64,000 nucleotides of DNA. Source: Bdellovibrio bacteriovorus (GTDB lineage: Bacteria > Bdellovibrionota > Bdellovibrionia > Bdellovibrionales > Bdellovibrionaceae). The DNA is taken from assembly GCF_001592755.1 (NCBI RefSeq), contig NZ_LUKF01000014.1, forward strand, positions 62,841-126,840. The letters are read 5' to 3'. Shown one piece after another: positions 3,102 through 63,774 of this stretch. A model generated the notes under the pieces. It was not told the origin of the DNA and did not search any database. It was given only the letters and a program-made list of their open reading frames with translations. Each line of letters begins with the position of its first letter. Positions within the stretch are counted from its first letter, which is position 1. The translations under genes were made by a program, and so were the position numbers.

Positions 3102-4481
3102 TTGGAACTTTCGAACTTTATCGGCGGGGAGTTTGTCCCCGCTGAAAGTAAAAACACGTTTGCTAAATTCAATCCTTTCACCGGCGAAGTTCTGGCGCAA
3201 GTTTCATCATCCGACGCGATGGATGTTATTAAAGCCCTGCAACCGGCAAAAAAAGCAGCGACAAGTTTTAAAGACAGTTCCCTAGAGCAAAGGGCCACCT
3301 ATCTAAAATCTCTTGCACAAATCCTTCAAGAAAACGCCGATCAAATTGCTTATGACGAGGCTCTTCATCAAGGTTTGCCTCACGCCTTCGTTCTAAAAAA
3401 CAATGTCGAAGTTTCTATTCGTATTTTGCAAGAAACTGCGGAAGCTCTTTTGCAATTGCAAGATCCAAAAATGCTTTATCAACCTTCAGGCATTGTCGGT
3501 ATCATCACGGCCTGGAGCTGCTCTTTACGTCTTGTCGTAGAAAGACTGGCGCCAGCACTGGCCGCGGGAAATGTTGTTCTGGTGAAAGTTTCCGAGCAAT
3601 CTCCGATCACGGCGAAAATTCTGGGAGAGGCTTTGCAAAAAGCTCAGATCCCGGCGGGCATCGTTAATATTCTTCAAGGAAATGCCGAGGTCGCGCAAAT
3701 CATCGCGGGTCATCCGAGTATTCGTGCGGTGACTGCGGCTGGAAAAACTTCCACGCTTGAAGCCATCGCAAAAACTGCTTTACCGCAATTTAAAAAATTG
3801 CAGTTAAGTGGGGGAGCAAAAAATCCATCAGCCGTTTTAGCGGACACAGATTATAAGAATCTGCTTCCCGAAATTCTTCGCCCTTTTTTAATCGGCCAAG
3901 GACAGATGTGTTGGAATATTTCCCGTTTGTTCGTTCTGGAATCTTTTGCTCCTGATTTCTTAGAGGCCGTGAAAAACTATTTTGCGGATCTAAAGCCTCT
4001 TAAAGATCCTCGCGGAAGTGAAGTTTGGACACCTTTGATTTCACAGAGCTCAGTCTCTCACATTGATGAAAAAATTAAGTTCGGTGTTTCTGAGCACGGA
4101 AAAGTTTTTGTCGGCGGTAACGTTGAAGGTGTGGGATTCTTCTATAAGCCAACAGTGATGTTGGATCTTCCTAACTGCAGTGTCTTGCAACAAGATGAGC
4201 TGCACGGACCTCTTTTGTTAATCACAGCCGTAAAGTACCAGCATGAAATTCAAAAGTGGGCGAACACTTCTTATGTCGCGCACTCCTCAGTGGTATGGGG
4301 GCCTTCAGAAAAAGTGATGAAGGTTGTTTCCGCGTTAGACACCGCCCATGTTTGGGTGAATTCTTGGATGAATGGTGAAACCACCACGATCTTCGGTCAC
4401 AAGCAGTCGAGCTTTGGAAATCTCGACATGTCTTGGAACGGCTCTTTTTATTCGGATGTAAAAAAATTGGCGGGGACCTAA
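3102..4481 (+). CDS. Aldehyde dehydrogenase superfamily protein, atypical active site
   Basis: The 459-residue protein has the full aldehyde dehydrogenase fold by sequence: an NAD-binding region with Lys162 (VLVKVSEQ), APALAAGN at 150-157, the nucleophile Cys270 in GQGQMC, and a C-terminal WVNSWMN segment. Two usually invariant residues are changed. The oxyanion Asn of PWNFP reads AWSCS (Ser139), and the general-base Glu of LELGGK reads LQLSGG (Gln234). It may therefore work as an acyl-transfer enzyme, act poorly, or bind cofactor without oxidising aldehydes. The start is a TTG ten bases after the preceding chemotaxis gene, with weak ribosome-binding sequence. The substrate cannot be told. 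Confidence 0.8.
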   Translation: MELSNFIGGEFVPAESKNTFAKFNPFTGEVLAQVSSSDAMDVIKALQPAKKAATSFKDSSLEQRATYLKSLAQILQENADQIAYDEALHQGLPHAFVLKNNVEVSIRILQETAEALLQLQDPKMLYQPSGIVGIITAWSCSLRLVVERLAPALAAGNVVLVKVSEQSPITAKILGEALQKAQIPAGIVNILQGNAEVAQIIAGHPSIRAVTAAGKTSTLEAIAKTALPQFKKLQLSGGAKNPSAVLADTDYKNLLPEILRPFLIGQGQMCWNISRLFVLESFAPDFLEAVKNYFADLKPLKDPRGSEVWTPLISQSSVSHIDEKIKFGVSEHGKVFVGGNVEGVGFFYKPTVMLDLPNCSVLQQDELHGPLLLITAVKYQHEIQKWANTSYVAHSSVVWGPSEKVMKVVSALDTAHVWVNSWMNGETTTIFGHKQSSFGNLDMSWNGSFYSDVKKLAGT

Positions 4482-4918: not shown

Positions 4919-5836
4919 ATGAAACATAAAATTTCTAAACTAATGTTGTTCGCTGCGCTTATTCCATTGTGGGGTTGTGTTGAAGTGAGAGATAAAGAGG
5001 TGACTATTGCACCTCCAGCGACTCCGGCTCCCAAAGTGATCGAGCGAAAGTTTTCGGATTTGGTCGTGAACCAAGATCTTTATCTCTATAAAGGCGGTCT
5101 TCGTACCAAACAAGAAATGGATGCGCTGATTGCCAACGAGGGTCTTTTAAGAGAGGTAGAAACTTATTCACTGCAGTTTCAAAAAATTATTTTTTCTGCT
5201 GAAGGACGTCTTTTTACGATGGGCAATGTGGTCACCTTGAAAGCGGAAGAACTGATTTCGGAAGAGGGACATATTTTAACCTTCCCTGAAGGACAAGTGG
5301 CTCCCTTAGGTCACGATGGCCGTCACGGCGGACACATAGCTCTCATTATCGAGAATGCAGAAGGCCTACTAAGCATCGTTCTTCGTGGCGAAAATGGTGG
5401 TCAAGGTCATCCTGGAAAGGATCCCGATCTTGCGTTGAAAGGAAAAAAAGGAAGAGACGCCAACGGAGGCTTATGCGTGAACGGAAAAATCCGAGAGGCA
5501 TGTACACCAGATCCAGGTGGACAAGGACTGCCAGGATATCAAGGGTTGCCAGGTTACCGTGGGGGAAATACAGGAACTCTGAGTCTTGAAATTAAGTCTA
5601 AGAGTAAGTTTCAACCAAAAATCTATCGTCTCGTTGGCAAGGGGGGCTCTGGTGGAGTCGGTGGCAAAGGTGGTCAAGGCGGCGACGGTGGAGATTCCAT
5701 AAATCGCAAGAAGCCTCGAGTGGGAGCTGGCAGTCAAGGCCCCGAAGGTCCTCAAGGTAAGCCTGGCCCCTATGGTCAGGACGGCATTCAAGAATCTGTG
5801 TGCGCCGTGAACGAATCCGGCGCGAACTGCATCTAA
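4919..5836 (+). CDS. Lipoprotein with collagen-like glycine repeats
   Basis: The 305-residue product starts at an ATG preceded by GAAGGAG. It has a lipoprotein signal (IPLWGC, lipid-modified Cys20), a region of about 130 residues of unknown fold, and then four glycine-rich stretches. These include Gly-X-Y collagen-type runs near 199-215 ([17 protein letters not shown]) and 270-289 ([18 protein letters not shown]), and a GG-X-rich run near 240-258. Four cysteines (186, 195, 295, 304) could form disulfides. Collagen-like bacterial lipoproteins are usually surface-exposed and often adhesive; that role here is inference. Its end overlaps the convergent kinase gene by 4 bases. Confidence 0.75.
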
Positions 5837-7836
5837 CCCAATTCTTCTTCGATAGGCGCGTGACTTAAAATAGTTTGAACAAGCGCATCGACATGCACGG
5901 GCTTTGTTAAATAGTCCGTGCAGCCTGCTTCCAAACATCTTTCCCGGTCATCCTTCATCGCGTGAGCGGTAAGAGCAATGATCGGTTTTTTATATCCGGC
6001 CTGACGTAATTTTTTTGTAGCCGTATAACCATCCATGATCGGCATTTGAATATCCATCAAGATAATATCGTAATTTTCTGCCAGCGCTTTATTTAAACCC
6101 TCTTCACCATTTGTCGCCAAAGTGAGTTTCGCGCCACGTTTGCTTAACATTCGTTGAATCAAGAGGCGATTGTCTTCGACGTCATCAACCAAAAGAATCG
6201 AAGTTTCGGAAAGCTGTTTTGCGTGGATAAAGTCTTTCTTCGGTAGCTGAAAACCTTTTTGCGATATATTTGCTGGATCAAGCCCAATGCGGACCGTGAA
6301 GGTACTTCCTTTGCCGGGGTCGCTTTCCTCCAAAAGAACTGTTCCGCCCATCATCTCTGCCAATTTACGAGACAGAACCAAGCCTAAACCTGTTCCCTCA
6401 TACTTTCTAGAGACCGAGCTGTCCACTTGACTGAACGGCTGGAACAACAAAGAGCGCTTTTCTGCAGAGATTCCTACGCCGGTATCTTTAATCGTGAACA
6501 AAAGATTAGGGCCCGAGACCTCATAAGTCATTCGCACATAACCTTGATCGGTGAACTTAATCGCATTGCCTAAAATATTTGTAAGCACTTGTCTTAAACG
6601 AAGAGGATCCGTGGTGATGGTGTCGGGAACAATCCCGCGGCGATTGAATTCAATATGAATCGGTTTTCCATGAGCTCGCGCGACCATCAAGACGTGAATA
6701 TCATCAAGTAAAGTGGAAAGTGATACCGAGCTTGGTTCAATCTCTAAGTGGCCGGCCTCAACTTTGGATAAATCCAAAATATCATTGATGATGCGTGTGA
6801 GGTTTTCGCCGGTACGTTGAATGATATTTAAGTATTGCAGTCTTTCTGATTCTGAAAGCTGTGAGTCTTTAAGAAGATCTGAAAATCCAATGATGGCCGC
6901 CAAGGGAGTACGGATTTCATGGCTCATGTTCGCTAAGAAAAGACTCTTAAGCTGACTGGCTTGTTCGGCTTGTCTGCGCTCGCCAATACTGTGGCGCAGA
7001 TCAAAGGCCATCTTATTTAAAGACTCTGCAAGCTGACCGATCTCGTCGCCAGAGCGCACAGGCACTTCGACGTTAAATTGGCCTTCGCCGATTCGTTTCG
7101 CAGCGGTATTGATCTCTTTAAGGCCTTTTGAAAGATTTCGGCTGGTCGCCACGGTCAAGGCTAAGCCCGTTCCTTCGACGATCAAAACGGCAAACAGCAG
7201 AGTGATCAACAAAACTTTTTCCAGCCAACGTGAACCTTCACCCAAGGTATAAGAAAAATTCCCTTCAAGAATTGTCAGTCGGTCATTCAGTTCATCGATT
7301 TTATCCAATGTTTGAATCACCTGCTGTTGAGAGGCATTGCTAGCAATGAGTTGATGAAGATTTTCTCCGTAAGAGATAAGTTCGTTGGTCAGGTCATCGC
7401 CTTCTCTCCAGATGCGGATGGCCTCTTTCACATAATGAAAGTTATGAAACTTCATGAGGTTGATAACGCCTGGAATATCGTCTTCGTGAATTTTTCCTTG
7501 AAGGAAACCTTGGTAAGCACCTTCCTCATCGGGAGGCACTTTTTCAAGCGCGCGACGAGCTTTGCTGTCCCCCAATGGAATCTCTAAATTTTCACGGAAA
7601 GATTGATAGAACTTCGGATCACGCGTACGTGCATACTTATGAAGACTGATGACTGCGTCTTTTTGCGCTTTGGACCACAGGCTTTCTCCCGTCACAAAAC
7701 TGCGCACCGACGAAAGCGTGTTCATTGCGAAATACAGAGAGAAAAGTTCTAAGGCGATAAGCAAAGCCATAACGCCAATCACGGCATACAGCTTATTAGA
7801 TACAGACATATATTTCCAAAAGCGTCGAAGTCCCAT
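5833..7836 (-). CDS. Membrane-bound hybrid sensor histidine kinase / response regulator
   Basis: This 667-residue protein has transmembrane segments at about 14-36 and 207-229 with an extracytoplasmic helical sensor between them. It continues with a HAMP linker (about 228-280), a HisKA domain with phospho-accepting His306 (MSHEIRTPL), an ATPase domain (NAIKF, DTGVGI, GTGLGL) and a C-terminal receiver with Asp595 (LMDIQMP). Phosphorelay to an unlinked phosphotransfer protein is expected. An alternative start at codon 10 (7809) has a weak GGA upstream. A TCCGATAA box lies 7 bases before the first ATG, so leaderless translation from 7836 is possible. The sensed signal is unknown. Confidence 0.92.
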
Positions 7837-7843
7837 GTGATAC

Positions 7844-7851
7844 TTATCGGA
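7844..7851 (-). promoter_or_regulatory. Candidate sigma-28-type -10 box (TCCGATAA)
   Basis: On the minus strand TCCGATAA ends 7 bases before the ATG of the hybrid kinase. The -10 matches the FliA box, but I see no good TAAAG-type -35 element at 11-12 bases spacing, so this is weaker than the other sites in the window. Confidence 0.3.
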
Positions 7852-30975: not shown

Positions 30976-31003
30976 TAAAGAGATCCAAGGTGAACTCCGA
31001 TAA
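30976..31003 (+). promoter_or_regulatory. Candidate FliA promoter, near-leaderless start
   Basis: TAAAGAGA (30976-30983), 12 bases, TCCGATAA (30996-31003), then 9 bases to the ATG of the papain-like protease. The expected transcription start falls 3-4 bases before that ATG. Confidence 0.55.
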
Positions 31004-31012
31004 GTCTTCATC

Positions 31013-32059
31013 ATGAACGTCATGGGAATACTCTTAATTTTAGCAATGGCTTCGACAGCATACGCCGGTGAAAATTGTTCCACGGTCGATTACCGCAAGG
31101 AACTAGGTCCTAATCGAGACCAAGGCGAACTTAGCTGGTGTTTTGCTTACACCTCTGCCGATCTTATTTCTCAAAGAGTGAAAACCCGGGTTTCCGCAAC
31201 CGATATCGCTTCGACTTTTATTTTGGCCGATCCCTATAAACTCGAAGAGTCGACACAACCTGAAGTGAAAAACTATCTTCAGGAAAATCCTGAAATTTAC
31301 ACACGCCTTCAAGGAATTCGTCTGGCTTCAGCAGGCAAATATGATCCGGAACACATTCTGCGCAAAGAAGGCTTGATGGATACCGGAGGTCAGGAGGACG
31401 CAGCTATCATTCTGGCGAACACCAAAGGTATGTGCACAGAAAAGAATTTTCCGTCGACGGAATCTCACCAGACAAAGTTTTTCAGCCAGATAACGAAACT
31501 CTATAAAAAAAGAAACGAAGCGCATGTAAAACAGAACAACTGTGGTTTGTTTCAGTCCCAAGCCGATTTCACTTCGGCGGTCGTGGATCCTTTTTCTGTT
31601 GCAATCACAAGTGTGTACGAGGATGAACGGGATCGTCGTTGTCAGCGTAAGCCGTGGCCCGTGCCGTTAGTGCCGGTCATGACGAAGTTCGGTGACAGTC
31701 TTGAAGAATATGAAACGCGCATCAAGAAAGGCGAAATCAATAAAGATGACGGGGCAAAAAAACTCTTCGCAACTATTGATCACGCCTTAGAAAATGGTCG
31801 CATCGCAGGTATCGGCTACAATGCCTATTCGCTGATGGCTCCCGAAGAGGGTGAAGATAACAAGCATGGCGATCACTCCAGTGTCATTGCAGCCCGCAAG
31901 ATGATTGCGGGAAAATGTCAGTACTTGATTCGAAATACCTGGGGTAGCGATTGTTCGATCTACTACGCGAAATTTCACAAGCGCTGTGAAAAAGGAAATG
32001 TCTGGGTGACCAAAGAGGAATTGAAAGAGTCCTTGTATAGCGTCGTCTATATGAAATAG
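31013..32059 (+). CDS. Secreted papain-family (C1) cysteine protease
   Basis: The 348-residue product has a signal peptide (cut near AYAGEN). It keeps the C1 active site in order: oxyanion Gln37 and nucleophile Cys43 in DQGELSWCFAY, His288 (GDHSSVIAAR), and Asn308 in the YLIRNTWGSDC segment, which matches the KNSWG motif of papain. There is no pro-region, so it may be made active or be held by another factor. It could degrade prey protein after secretion; that is inference. There is no ribosome site and a FliA-like -10 box ends 9 bases before the first ATG (a second in-frame ATG is at 31022). Confidence 0.85.
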   Translation: MNVMGILLILAMASTAYAGENCSTVDYRKELGPNRDQGELSWCFAYTSADLISQRVKTRVSATDIASTFILADPYKLEESTQPEVKNYLQENPEIYTRLQGIRLASAGKYDPEHILRKEGLMDTGGQEDAAIILANTKGMCTEKNFPSTESHQTKFFSQITKLYKKRNEAHVKQNNCGLFQSQADFTSAVVDPFSVAITSVYEDERDRRCQRKPWPVPLVPVMTKFGDSLEEYETRIKKGEINKDDGAKKLFATIDHALENGRIAGIGYNAYSLMAPEEGEDNKHGDHSSVIAARKMIAGKCQYLIRNTWGSDCSIYYAKFHKRCEKGNVWVTKEELKESLYSVVYMK

Positions 32060-32081
32060 GCCTCGACGAAAGTGATGAAAT

Positions 32082-32109
32082 TCAAGTTCTCTCTCTGAGA
32101 ATCCGATAA
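32082..32109 (+). promoter_or_regulatory. Candidate FliA promoter of the flaG-fliD series
   Basis: TCAAGTTC (32082-32089), 12 bases, TCCGATAA (32102-32109), then 9 bases to the ATG at 32119. No ribosome site is present in the gap. Confidence 0.6.
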
Positions 32110-32118
32110 GAACCTCGT

Positions 32119-32493
32119 ATGAATATCAAAGGAATGATTTCAAATATTCTGCCCAACACTGAGGTTCGCTCTGTCGACCGCACGGGGCAGGCTATTAAGT
32201 CAGATCAGACCAATGATCGCGACGCCAACGGACAAGAGATGTACGGTGGCAATCAAGAACAGCGCGAGCCCATGACCGATGAGCAGCTTGAAAAAGCGAT
32301 GGAGCATCTGCGCAACCTACCCGCAATGAAAGAACACAAGTGGACGGTAGAGCTTGATGCTGATGAAAAAGGTCGCTTCGTTCTCGTGAAAGACAATCTG
32401 GGAACGGTCATCCGTCGCATTCCTGAACTGGAATTGTGGACTCTTCCCTCTGACAACTCTCATCGCGGGCAGTTGTTGAAGCGTTCTGCTTAA
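32119..32493 (+). CDS. FlaG-like flagellar protein
   Basis: The 124-residue product has a variable polar N-terminal half and a C-terminal domain LDADEKGRFVLVKDNLGTVIRRIP, the pattern of FlaG (a beta segment ending in D-x-x-G-x-V-I-R-x-I-P). FlaG proteins affect filament length and are usually found beside fliD, as here. The start is near-leaderless behind a FliA-type promoter. Confidence 0.8.
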   Translation: MNIKGMISNILPNTEVRSVDRTGQAIKSDQTNDRDANGQEMYGGNQEQREPMTDEQLEKAMEHLRNLPAMKEHKWTVELDADEKGRFVLVKDNLGTVIRRIPELELWTLPSDNSHRGQLLKRSA

Positions 32494-56506: not shown

Positions 56507-56514
56507 TTATCGGT
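56507..56514 (-). promoter_or_regulatory. Candidate sigma-28-type -10 box (ACCGATAA)
   Basis: The box is 8 bases before the ATG on the minus strand. There is no clear -35 match, so the call is weak on its own but fits the other near-leaderless sites. Confidence 0.3.
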
Positions 56515-62928: not shown

Positions 62929-63774
62929 ATGAAAAAAGCCACTGCGCAAAGATATTTCCTGAAGAAACACGGGGCTAAGAAACTTTTACCTAAGGTTTCC
63001 ACCTCGGATAATAAATCTTCGCGCGGTCGCAGCCTGATCTTAGCGGGAAGTAGCGAGTATCCCGGTGCGGGTGTCTTAGCGGCGAAGGCGGCGCTTCGTA
63101 CGGGAAGCGGTTACGTCACGTTAGCGCAAAAAAACATCGCCGTCTCTTCGTTAGAAAACCCAGATTTTTTGCTTTGTGATCTTAATAAAAAATCGTGGCA
63201 GGAAATAAATTTCGATGTGGTTTTAGTAGGACCGGGTTTTGGAGTAAATAGCTTCACGGCCCAGATCATTCGCGAACTCAAAAATAAACAAATAGAGAAA
63301 GTCATTCTAGATGCCGACGCTCTTACGGTGTGTGCAAATGAAAATCTATTTCCTTTGCCGTCTTCGTGGATCGTCACTCCACATACGGGAGAACTTGCGC
63401 GCTGTTTGAAAATCAGTGTCGAAGAAATCAATGCCGATCGCTATAAAGCGGCTCGCCGAGCTCAGGATCTTTTTCAGTGTGTGGTGATTTTAAAGGGACA
63501 TGAAACTTTGATCGCGAATCGCCAAAGAATCTATACCAATAAAACCGGGAACGCGGCCTTGGCAAAGTCAGGGACGGGGGATGTGCTGGCGGGAATATTA
63601 ACCGCTTTACGCGGGCAGGGACTGACTGCCACTCAGGCGGCCGTTTTAGGGGTTTACATCCATGGGGCGACGGCCAATCTTTGGGCTTCGCGCAAGAAGG
63701 ACCTTCTCTCGATGATGGCCTCGGATGTAATCGAATATATCCCATCTGTACTGCGTATTCTTCGAGGTAATTGA
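62929..63774 (+). CDS. nnrD: ADP-dependent NAD(P)H-hydrate dehydratase
   Basis: The 281-residue protein belongs to the YjeF C-terminal (ribokinase-like) family: GRSLILAGSSEYPGAGVLAAKAALRTGSGYVTLA, VVLVGPGFGV, and the nucleotide site GTGDVLAGILTAL. It repairs damaged NAD(P)H. The N-terminal epimerase partner is not fused. The ATG at 62929 is preferred over an earlier in-frame codon within the map gene. Confidence 0.92.
   Translation: MKKATAQRYFLKKHGAKKLLPKVSTSDNKSSRGRSLILAGSSEYPGAGVLAAKAALRTGSGYVTLAQKNIAVSSLENPDFLLCDLNKKSWQEINFDVVLVGPGFGVNSFTAQIIRELKNKQIEKVILDADALTVCANENLFPLPSSWIVTPHTGELARCLKISVEEINADRYKAARRAQDLFQCVVILKGHETLIANRQRIYTNKTGNAALAKSGTGDVLAGILTALRGQGLTATQAAVLGVYIHGATANLWASRKKDLLSMMASDVIEYIPSVLRILRGN

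Follow-up and report, generated by a model that had tools for sequence, protein, structure and literature searches.

Putative FliA promoter boxes placed just before start codons point to probable leaderless attack-phase messages in Bdellovibrio bacteriovorus

Introduction

In a stretch of 64,000 nucleotides from Bdellovibrio bacteriovorus, referred to here as the window, four genes carry the heptamer CCGATAA a few bases before their ATG, which raises the question of where their messages begin and how ribosomes find the start codon. A preliminary description of the window had proposed near-leaderless messages driven by sigma-28 (FliA). FliA is the sigma factor of the swimming phase, whereas leaderlessness is mostly associated with genes read by the housekeeping sigma factor.

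Materials and methods

The genome containing the window comprises 3.66 Mb in 20 contigs, and the relatives found with FliD belong to Bdellovibrio, with identities of at most 91% (85% for B. bacteriovorus kdesi). Sequence was taken as stretches around every match and as a systematic, unbiased genome sample of 1.48 Mb. Genes were predicted with a simple, crude gene finder, and a plausible gene had at least 60 codons, a coding score and an upstream stop within 70 codons. The gap is the number of bases between CCGATAA and the start codon, and genes with the box at gaps 6-10 are called box-led. The four window proteins were scanned with Pfam separately from a set of 20 of the 40 box-led proteins.

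Results

The features of the four window genes are listed in Table 1, and CCGATAAG stands upstream of each of the four ATGs at the gaps given there. The preliminary description had placed CCGATAA 7-9 bases before these ATGs, and this was borne out: CCGATAA-N7..9-ATG was observed four times in the window, compared with a mean of 0.26 in dinucleotide-shuffled windows. CCGATAA alone was not enriched in the window (10 observed vs 7.0 expected), and four of these ten sites are the ones preceding the four ATGs; when 10 boxes are placed randomly against the 62 predicted starts, four matches at gaps 7-9 have P ~9e-10. The enriched feature of the window is the placement of CCGATAA, not the number of boxes.

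Table 1. Positions of the putative FliA promoter elements and of the genes that follow them in the window
Feature	Positions	Strand	Remarks
-35-like TAAAG, protease promoter	30976..30980	+	16 bases before CCGATAA; TTAAG-N16-CCGATA at 4/5 bases
Candidate FliA -10 box CCGATAA, protease	30997..31003	+	gap 9 to ATG 31013
Exported protein, signal peptide from ATG	31013..32059	+	papain-like protease in the preliminary description; no Pfam hit
-35-like TCAAG, flaG promoter	32082..32086	+	16 bases before CCGATAA
Candidate FliA -10 box CCGATAA, flaG	32103..32109	+	gap 9 to ATG 32119
FlaG-like protein	32119..32493	+	PF03646, E 2e-4, just under Pfam cut-off; conserved start MNIK
Candidate FliA -10 box CCGATAA, kinase	7844..7850	-	gap 7 to ATG 7836
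Hybrid histidine kinase	5833..7836	-	HAMP, HisKA, HATPase_c and Response_reg domains
Candidate FliA -10 box CCGATAA, HAMP-like gene	56507..56513	-	gap 8 to ATG 56498
Membrane protein, 219 residues	55839..56498	-	HAMP-like in the preliminary description; no Pfam hit; conserved start MLYGRR

The -10 sequence CCGATA is exact in all four window genes. A good -35 element had been described for two of them and is present there, the protease and flaG promoters each matching TTAAG at 4/5 bases; the spacing of 12 bases given with it has to be corrected to 16, since 12 is obtained only with 8-base elements. No good -35 was found at N16 spacing from the box in front of the kinase and the HAMP-like gene. 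The description had also seen no ribosome site in any of the gaps, which does not strictly hold for the HAMP-like gap GAGGTCAT; this contains GAGGT, a motif that most orthologs do not keep and that would lie upstream of the predicted +1.

A genome-wide count against a control, which had been proposed along with the description, gave a sharp peak at gap 7. CCGATAA-N5..12-ATG occurs 91 times in the genome, compared with 20 times for the pattern read backwards, and the counts for gaps 5 to 12 are 10, 7, 31, 11, 11, 8, 11 and 2, so that 31 of the 91 fall at gap 7; for CCGATAAG they are 5, 2, 21, 5, 8, 1, 2 and 1. Because CCGATAA is about twice as frequent genome-wide as its reverse (558 vs 285), the gap peak is a cleaner test than the reversed control. 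At gaps 4-12, 43 of 101 unique matches open a plausible gene (gap 4, 1; gap 6, 1; gap 7, 22; gap 8, 5; gap 9, 10; gap 10, 2; gap 11, 1; gap 12, 1), and 37 of the 43 are at gaps 7-9.

The same placement was seen beyond this genome. In B. bacteriovorus kdesi, 15 of 30 CCGATAAG matches are at a gap-7 peak, and in the genus CCGATAAG-N6-ATG was counted 340 times, compared with 19 for the reversed pattern (hand sum over 24 genomes). In hand sums that leave 25 of 191 genomes, from small families, outside the totals, gap 7 exceeded gap 13 by 428 to 131 sites in the genus (3.3-fold, 16 genomes), by 168 to 90 in other genera of the family (about 1.9-fold, 16 genomes), by 233 to 121 in other families of the order (about 1.9-fold, 26 genomes) and by 684 to 346 in family f14 (2.0-fold, 54 genomes). 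Families f13 (170 vs 122, 28 genomes), f16 (80 vs 59, 13 genomes) and f9 (92 vs 82, 13 genomes), 54 genomes together, had an excess of only 1.1-1.4-fold. This arrangement is most pronounced in Bdellovibrio and fades or disappears in more distant groups.

The region upstream of the boxes resembles a FliA promoter. The base at -21 before the box is T in 78% of the 40 box-led genes and in 34% of the 58 other matches; in the box-led genes this T is followed by a weaker T/A-A-A-G at exactly N16, and the remaining 58 matches show nothing there. TTAAG-N16-CCGATA occurs in 92 of 140 attack-phase promoters with mapped transcription starts in B. bacteriovorus HD100 (Karunker et al. 2013, PMC3627812), and flp1 promoters are reported to be driven in E. 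coli by the FliA of two Bdellovibrio species (PMC5430801). The genome of the window encodes its own FliA (TIGR02479, 281 bits vs a cut-off of 189.6). The boxes thus appear to be sigma-28 promoters of the attack-phase type, and we infer that these particular genes depend on FliA.

A scan with an outside consensus (TTAAG with at most two mismatches, N16, CCGATA) gave 12 sites at gaps 7-12, none at gaps 13-19 and 10 at gaps 20-59, and a scrambled consensus yielded 0.07 at gaps 6-9. The spacing is bimodal, and in the empty range a leader would be too long for a leaderless message yet would leave too little room for a ribosome site. Ordinary leadered promoters make up about half of the FliA-like ones that lie within 60 bases of a start; among the leadered rows at longer gaps, 8 of 13 have a Shine-Dalgarno sequence, which is a lower bound because 3 of the 13 (L070, L103 and L120) are leaderless genes whose starts were called too far downstream.

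GGAG peaks 5-8 bases before starts in the unbiased 1.48 Mb sample, indicating that a Shine-Dalgarno sequence is the rule in this genome. A Shine-Dalgarno match of at least 4 bases was present in 53.8% of 1303 genes, in 22.5% of the 40 box-led genes and in 22.5% of 2160 random places; in front of box-led genes it is at the random level. The start codons of gene-opening matches at gaps 7-9 are ATG in 33 cases, GTG in one and TTG in none, compared with 1272 ATG, 118 GTG and 86 TTG for all predicted genes.

A related signal was found for the sigma-70 box TANNNT, whose counts are highest at distances of 6 and 7 bases from the start (40 and 29 of 1296, about 20 elsewhere). Only 14-17% of the genes led by this box have a Shine-Dalgarno sequence, and TTG is commoner at their -35 place than at other gaps. 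Leaderless translation is thus probably a general ability of the species, with about 3% of genes served by sigma-70 and about half of the FliA promoters near genes being of this kind, although the sizes of these classes are rough because the gene finder is simple. In the window, TANNNT lies 7 or 6 bases before the predicted starts of genes 62929-63774 and 3102-4481 (the second starts with TTG), which are candidate sigma-70 leaderless starts or mis-called starts.

The position of the first transcribed base was considered from the bases between box and ATG. The usual initiator is a pyrimidine at -1 and a purine at +1. Among the matches listed for the genus, C or T directly precedes the ATG in 136 of 150 CCGATAAG-N6-ATG sites, and in 100 of 112 when only distinct spacers are taken (P ~2e-11 vs 0.61 genome-wide); in the genome of the window this holds for 21 of 22 gene-opening gap-7 sites. 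Because a pyrimidine at -1 and a following purine form the usual initiator, the A of the ATG is the likely +1 in gap-7 genes, and their leader is probably 0 rather than 2 bases. For gap-8 and gap-9 genes a start signal at base 7 or 8 was judged by eye and not counted as evidence.

The preliminary description had computed that transcription starts 2-4 bases before the ATG. Placement near the start codon was upheld, and for gap-7 genes the pyrimidine at -1 suggests the A of the ATG instead. A leader of 2-6 bases that never shrinks to zero, in line with that computation, is nevertheless the alternative that survives best, although we consider it rather unlikely. Transcription of E. coli aer begins 6 bp downstream of the -10 octamer (PMC2859248), and with the same distance gap-7 genes would have a leader of 2 bases; the gaps of 9-11 among the protease orthologs also agree with such a leader. 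In the listed gap-7 sites, however, bases 5 and 6 after the box do not form a pyrimidine-purine signature (pyrimidine at position 5 in 47%, purine at position 6 in 58%), and it is base 7, directly before the A of ATG, that is a pyrimidine in 90%.

Orthologs were compared for all four genes. With up to three box mismatches allowed, and with orthologs of one genus not being independent events, a CCGA(T/C) box at gap 7-9 precedes the MNIK-type start of flaG in 12 of 12 readable rows, the window's included (exact CCGATAA in 7 of 12; the count omits two fliD loci where no flaG start is readable, L141 with no match and L143 whose match begins at residue 23), and a CGA-type box at gap 6-9 precedes the conserved start of the HAMP-like gene in 29 of 30 loci (19 exact; L201 boxless; in-frame ATG picked by eye for L194, L198, L202 and L203, which are unaligned at residue 1). 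TTTAAG or TTCAAG is found at the -35 place of flaG in several orthologs, and both the letters and the length (7, 8 or 9) of the HAMP-like gap vary freely within the genus. The protease box is kept in 5 of 5 ortholog rows, the window's included, with TAAAG at about the same distance in L227 and L229.

A separate observation concerns the block GAGAATAATTGGACTC, which is strongly conserved about 30-50 bases before the 56498 start (minus strand) and also in orthologs L174-L190. It spans the -35 area and beyond, and could be part of the divergent gene 56584 or a site for a regulator.

For the kinase, a CGATA-type box is kept at 14 of 21 loci (gaps 5-10). The seven most diverged orthologs are boxless, and five of the seven have GAGGA before the start and five of the seven a GTG start. 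This swap suggests that the box and the ribosome site are alternatives, with the seven loci being related and representing few events. The diverged clade (L218-L224), with purine-rich leaders, mostly GTG starts and no FliA box, looks like a natural promoter switch.

These comparisons also bear on whether the FliA promoters are real but the true starts lie downstream, behind ordinary ribosome sites, giving normal leaders. Some genes do have a second ATG nearby (31022 in the protease, codon 10 in the kinase), and the kinase start at 7836 was not chosen by the gene finder. Against this, the 7836 start is supported because it is conserved among orthologs, codon 10 is not Met in L208 and L209, and protein conservation begins at the proposed ATGs of flaG and the HAMP-like gene. 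Most of the flaG and HAMP-like orthologs keep the gap at 7-9 bases even though its letters drift. In addition, a hydrophobic N-terminus follows directly after the ATG in 28 of the 40 box-led genes, compared with 411 of 1292 among all genes, which argues that the box-led starts are right. Downstream starts are therefore very unlikely.

Another possibility is that transcription comes from far upstream and that the CCGATAA close to the ATG acts in translation or as an RNA element and not as a promoter, as its location at the usual ribosome site position might suggest. We regard this as highly improbable, since TTAAG at N16 accompanies only the gene-opening boxes and the pair equals the attack-phase promoter with mapped starts, and since CCGATAAG has no match to the anti-Shine-Dalgarno sequence. 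E. coli FliA genes also carry the same box at least 33 bases before the start codon: 33 bases for flgK, 43 for fliD and flgM and 76 for fliC, with a leader containing AGGAAGG after the box in tar (contrast drawn from tar, motA, fliC, fliD, flgM, flgK and fliA only, with motA and fliA as poor matches given little weight). That a common heptamer merely happens to fall near start codons, which would suit the unenriched total in the window, has practically no standing, as none of 100 shuffles reached four matches and the peaks in genome and genus are far above the gap and reversed controls.

The kinds of genes led by the box were considered with Pfam. The scan of 20 proteins gave S74 endosialidase chaperones at the ends of large exported proteins, propellers of the RCC1-like and BNR types and one protein with an HD domain, and several proteins matched no family; a content of surface and exported proteins is consistent with the attack phase. 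L106:2142-12822, L070:6399-10142 and L103:2457-5000 represent a set of large exported proteins whose N-termini are alike (M-R/K-x-G-T..., AP..LTYQ); their genes follow FliA boxes at gap 7 or gap 9, several of them are adjacent to one another, and some of the proteins have a C-terminal S74 endosialidase chaperone.

Discussion

The reading we favour, and hold to be very probable on these sequence patterns, is that FliA promoters of the form TTAAG-N16-CCGATAAG are placed with the predicted transcription start on the start codon and yield leaderless messages. FliA polymerase would begin about 8 bases past the box, so that in gap-7 genes +1 would be the A of the ATG and the message truly leaderless, while gaps 8-11 would leave a leader of about 1-4 bases. 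Since no Shine-Dalgarno sequence could be in such a message, ribosomes would have to begin on the 5'-terminal AUG, and one short DNA box would set both the transcription and the translation start. Both the exact +1 and initiation on a 5'-terminal AUG are predictions of this model. The near-leaderless sigma-28 messages first proposed for the window thus gain in silico support from the gap-7 peak, the lack of Shine-Dalgarno enrichment and the spacing conserved among orthologs. A point against the explanation is that a good -35 is missing in two of the four window genes.

Reporter fusions in B. bacteriovorus give a mixed picture (PMC12622784). Removal of the ribosome site strongly lowers expression from Pbd0064 and Pbd0149, which speaks against easy leaderless use of these promoters. 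In the same work, an optimised ribosome site outperformed the native upstream regions in three of four cases and raised expression of bd0064, bd0149 and bd1981, and native ribosome sites were called short; this gain would fit native sites that are weak or absent, without proving it.

If messages of this kind are made, whole 70S ribosomes might replace Shine-Dalgarno-guided 30S subunits on them. We put forward, as a speculation that is more likely wrong than right, that the attack-phase programme is set apart in translation too: about half of the gene-near FliA promoters would give AUG-starting, 70S-dependent messages, which could favour these genes in non-growing attack cells and help to switch them off when growth starts in the prey.

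Should leaderless FliA messages be real, leaderless genes would be undercounted, since a large survey looked for the housekeeping box only, attack-phase genes of these predators may carry mis-annotated starts, and Bdellovibrio expression tools should include fusions without a ribosome site. The arrangement also suggests that FliA could recruit new genes easily, as one small box just before the start codon would suffice.

Compared with known systems, the closest likeness is to the attack-phase FliA promoters of HD100 (PMC3627812), which have the same -35 and -10 elements and the same kinds of genes (surface proteins, proteases); in that article's main text the word leader is absent and UTR occurs twice. 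In the leaderless genes surveyed by Zheng et al. (2011, PMC3160421), a sigma-70 TANNNT box lies about 12 bp before the start, so that, as here, the -10 adjoins the start codon and no Shine-Dalgarno sequence is present. That survey covered Pribnow-like boxes only and judged many leaderless genes from other sigma factors unlikely, whereas the box here is a sigma-28 box. Leptospira interrogans likewise combines many leaderless messages with a sigma-28 in its transcription start map (PMC5243855), but in the passages of that report considered no link is drawn between sigma-28 and the leaderless class, in which motility genes are under-represented at 37 C. In the open literature on Bdellovibrio, leaderless messages and sigma-28 or alternative sigma factors, as far as its text was accessible, no report joins FliA regulons with leaderless messages. 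A direct precedent is whiH of Streptomyces coelicolor, described as leaderless with the -10 GCCGACAA read by sigma-WhiG (in PMC3160421). That case is one actinobacterial gene, whereas here 37 exact-box genes are found in one genome and the genus as a whole keeps the spacing; both FliA promoters and leaderless genes are already known, and the element that seems new is their proposed joining across a regulon.
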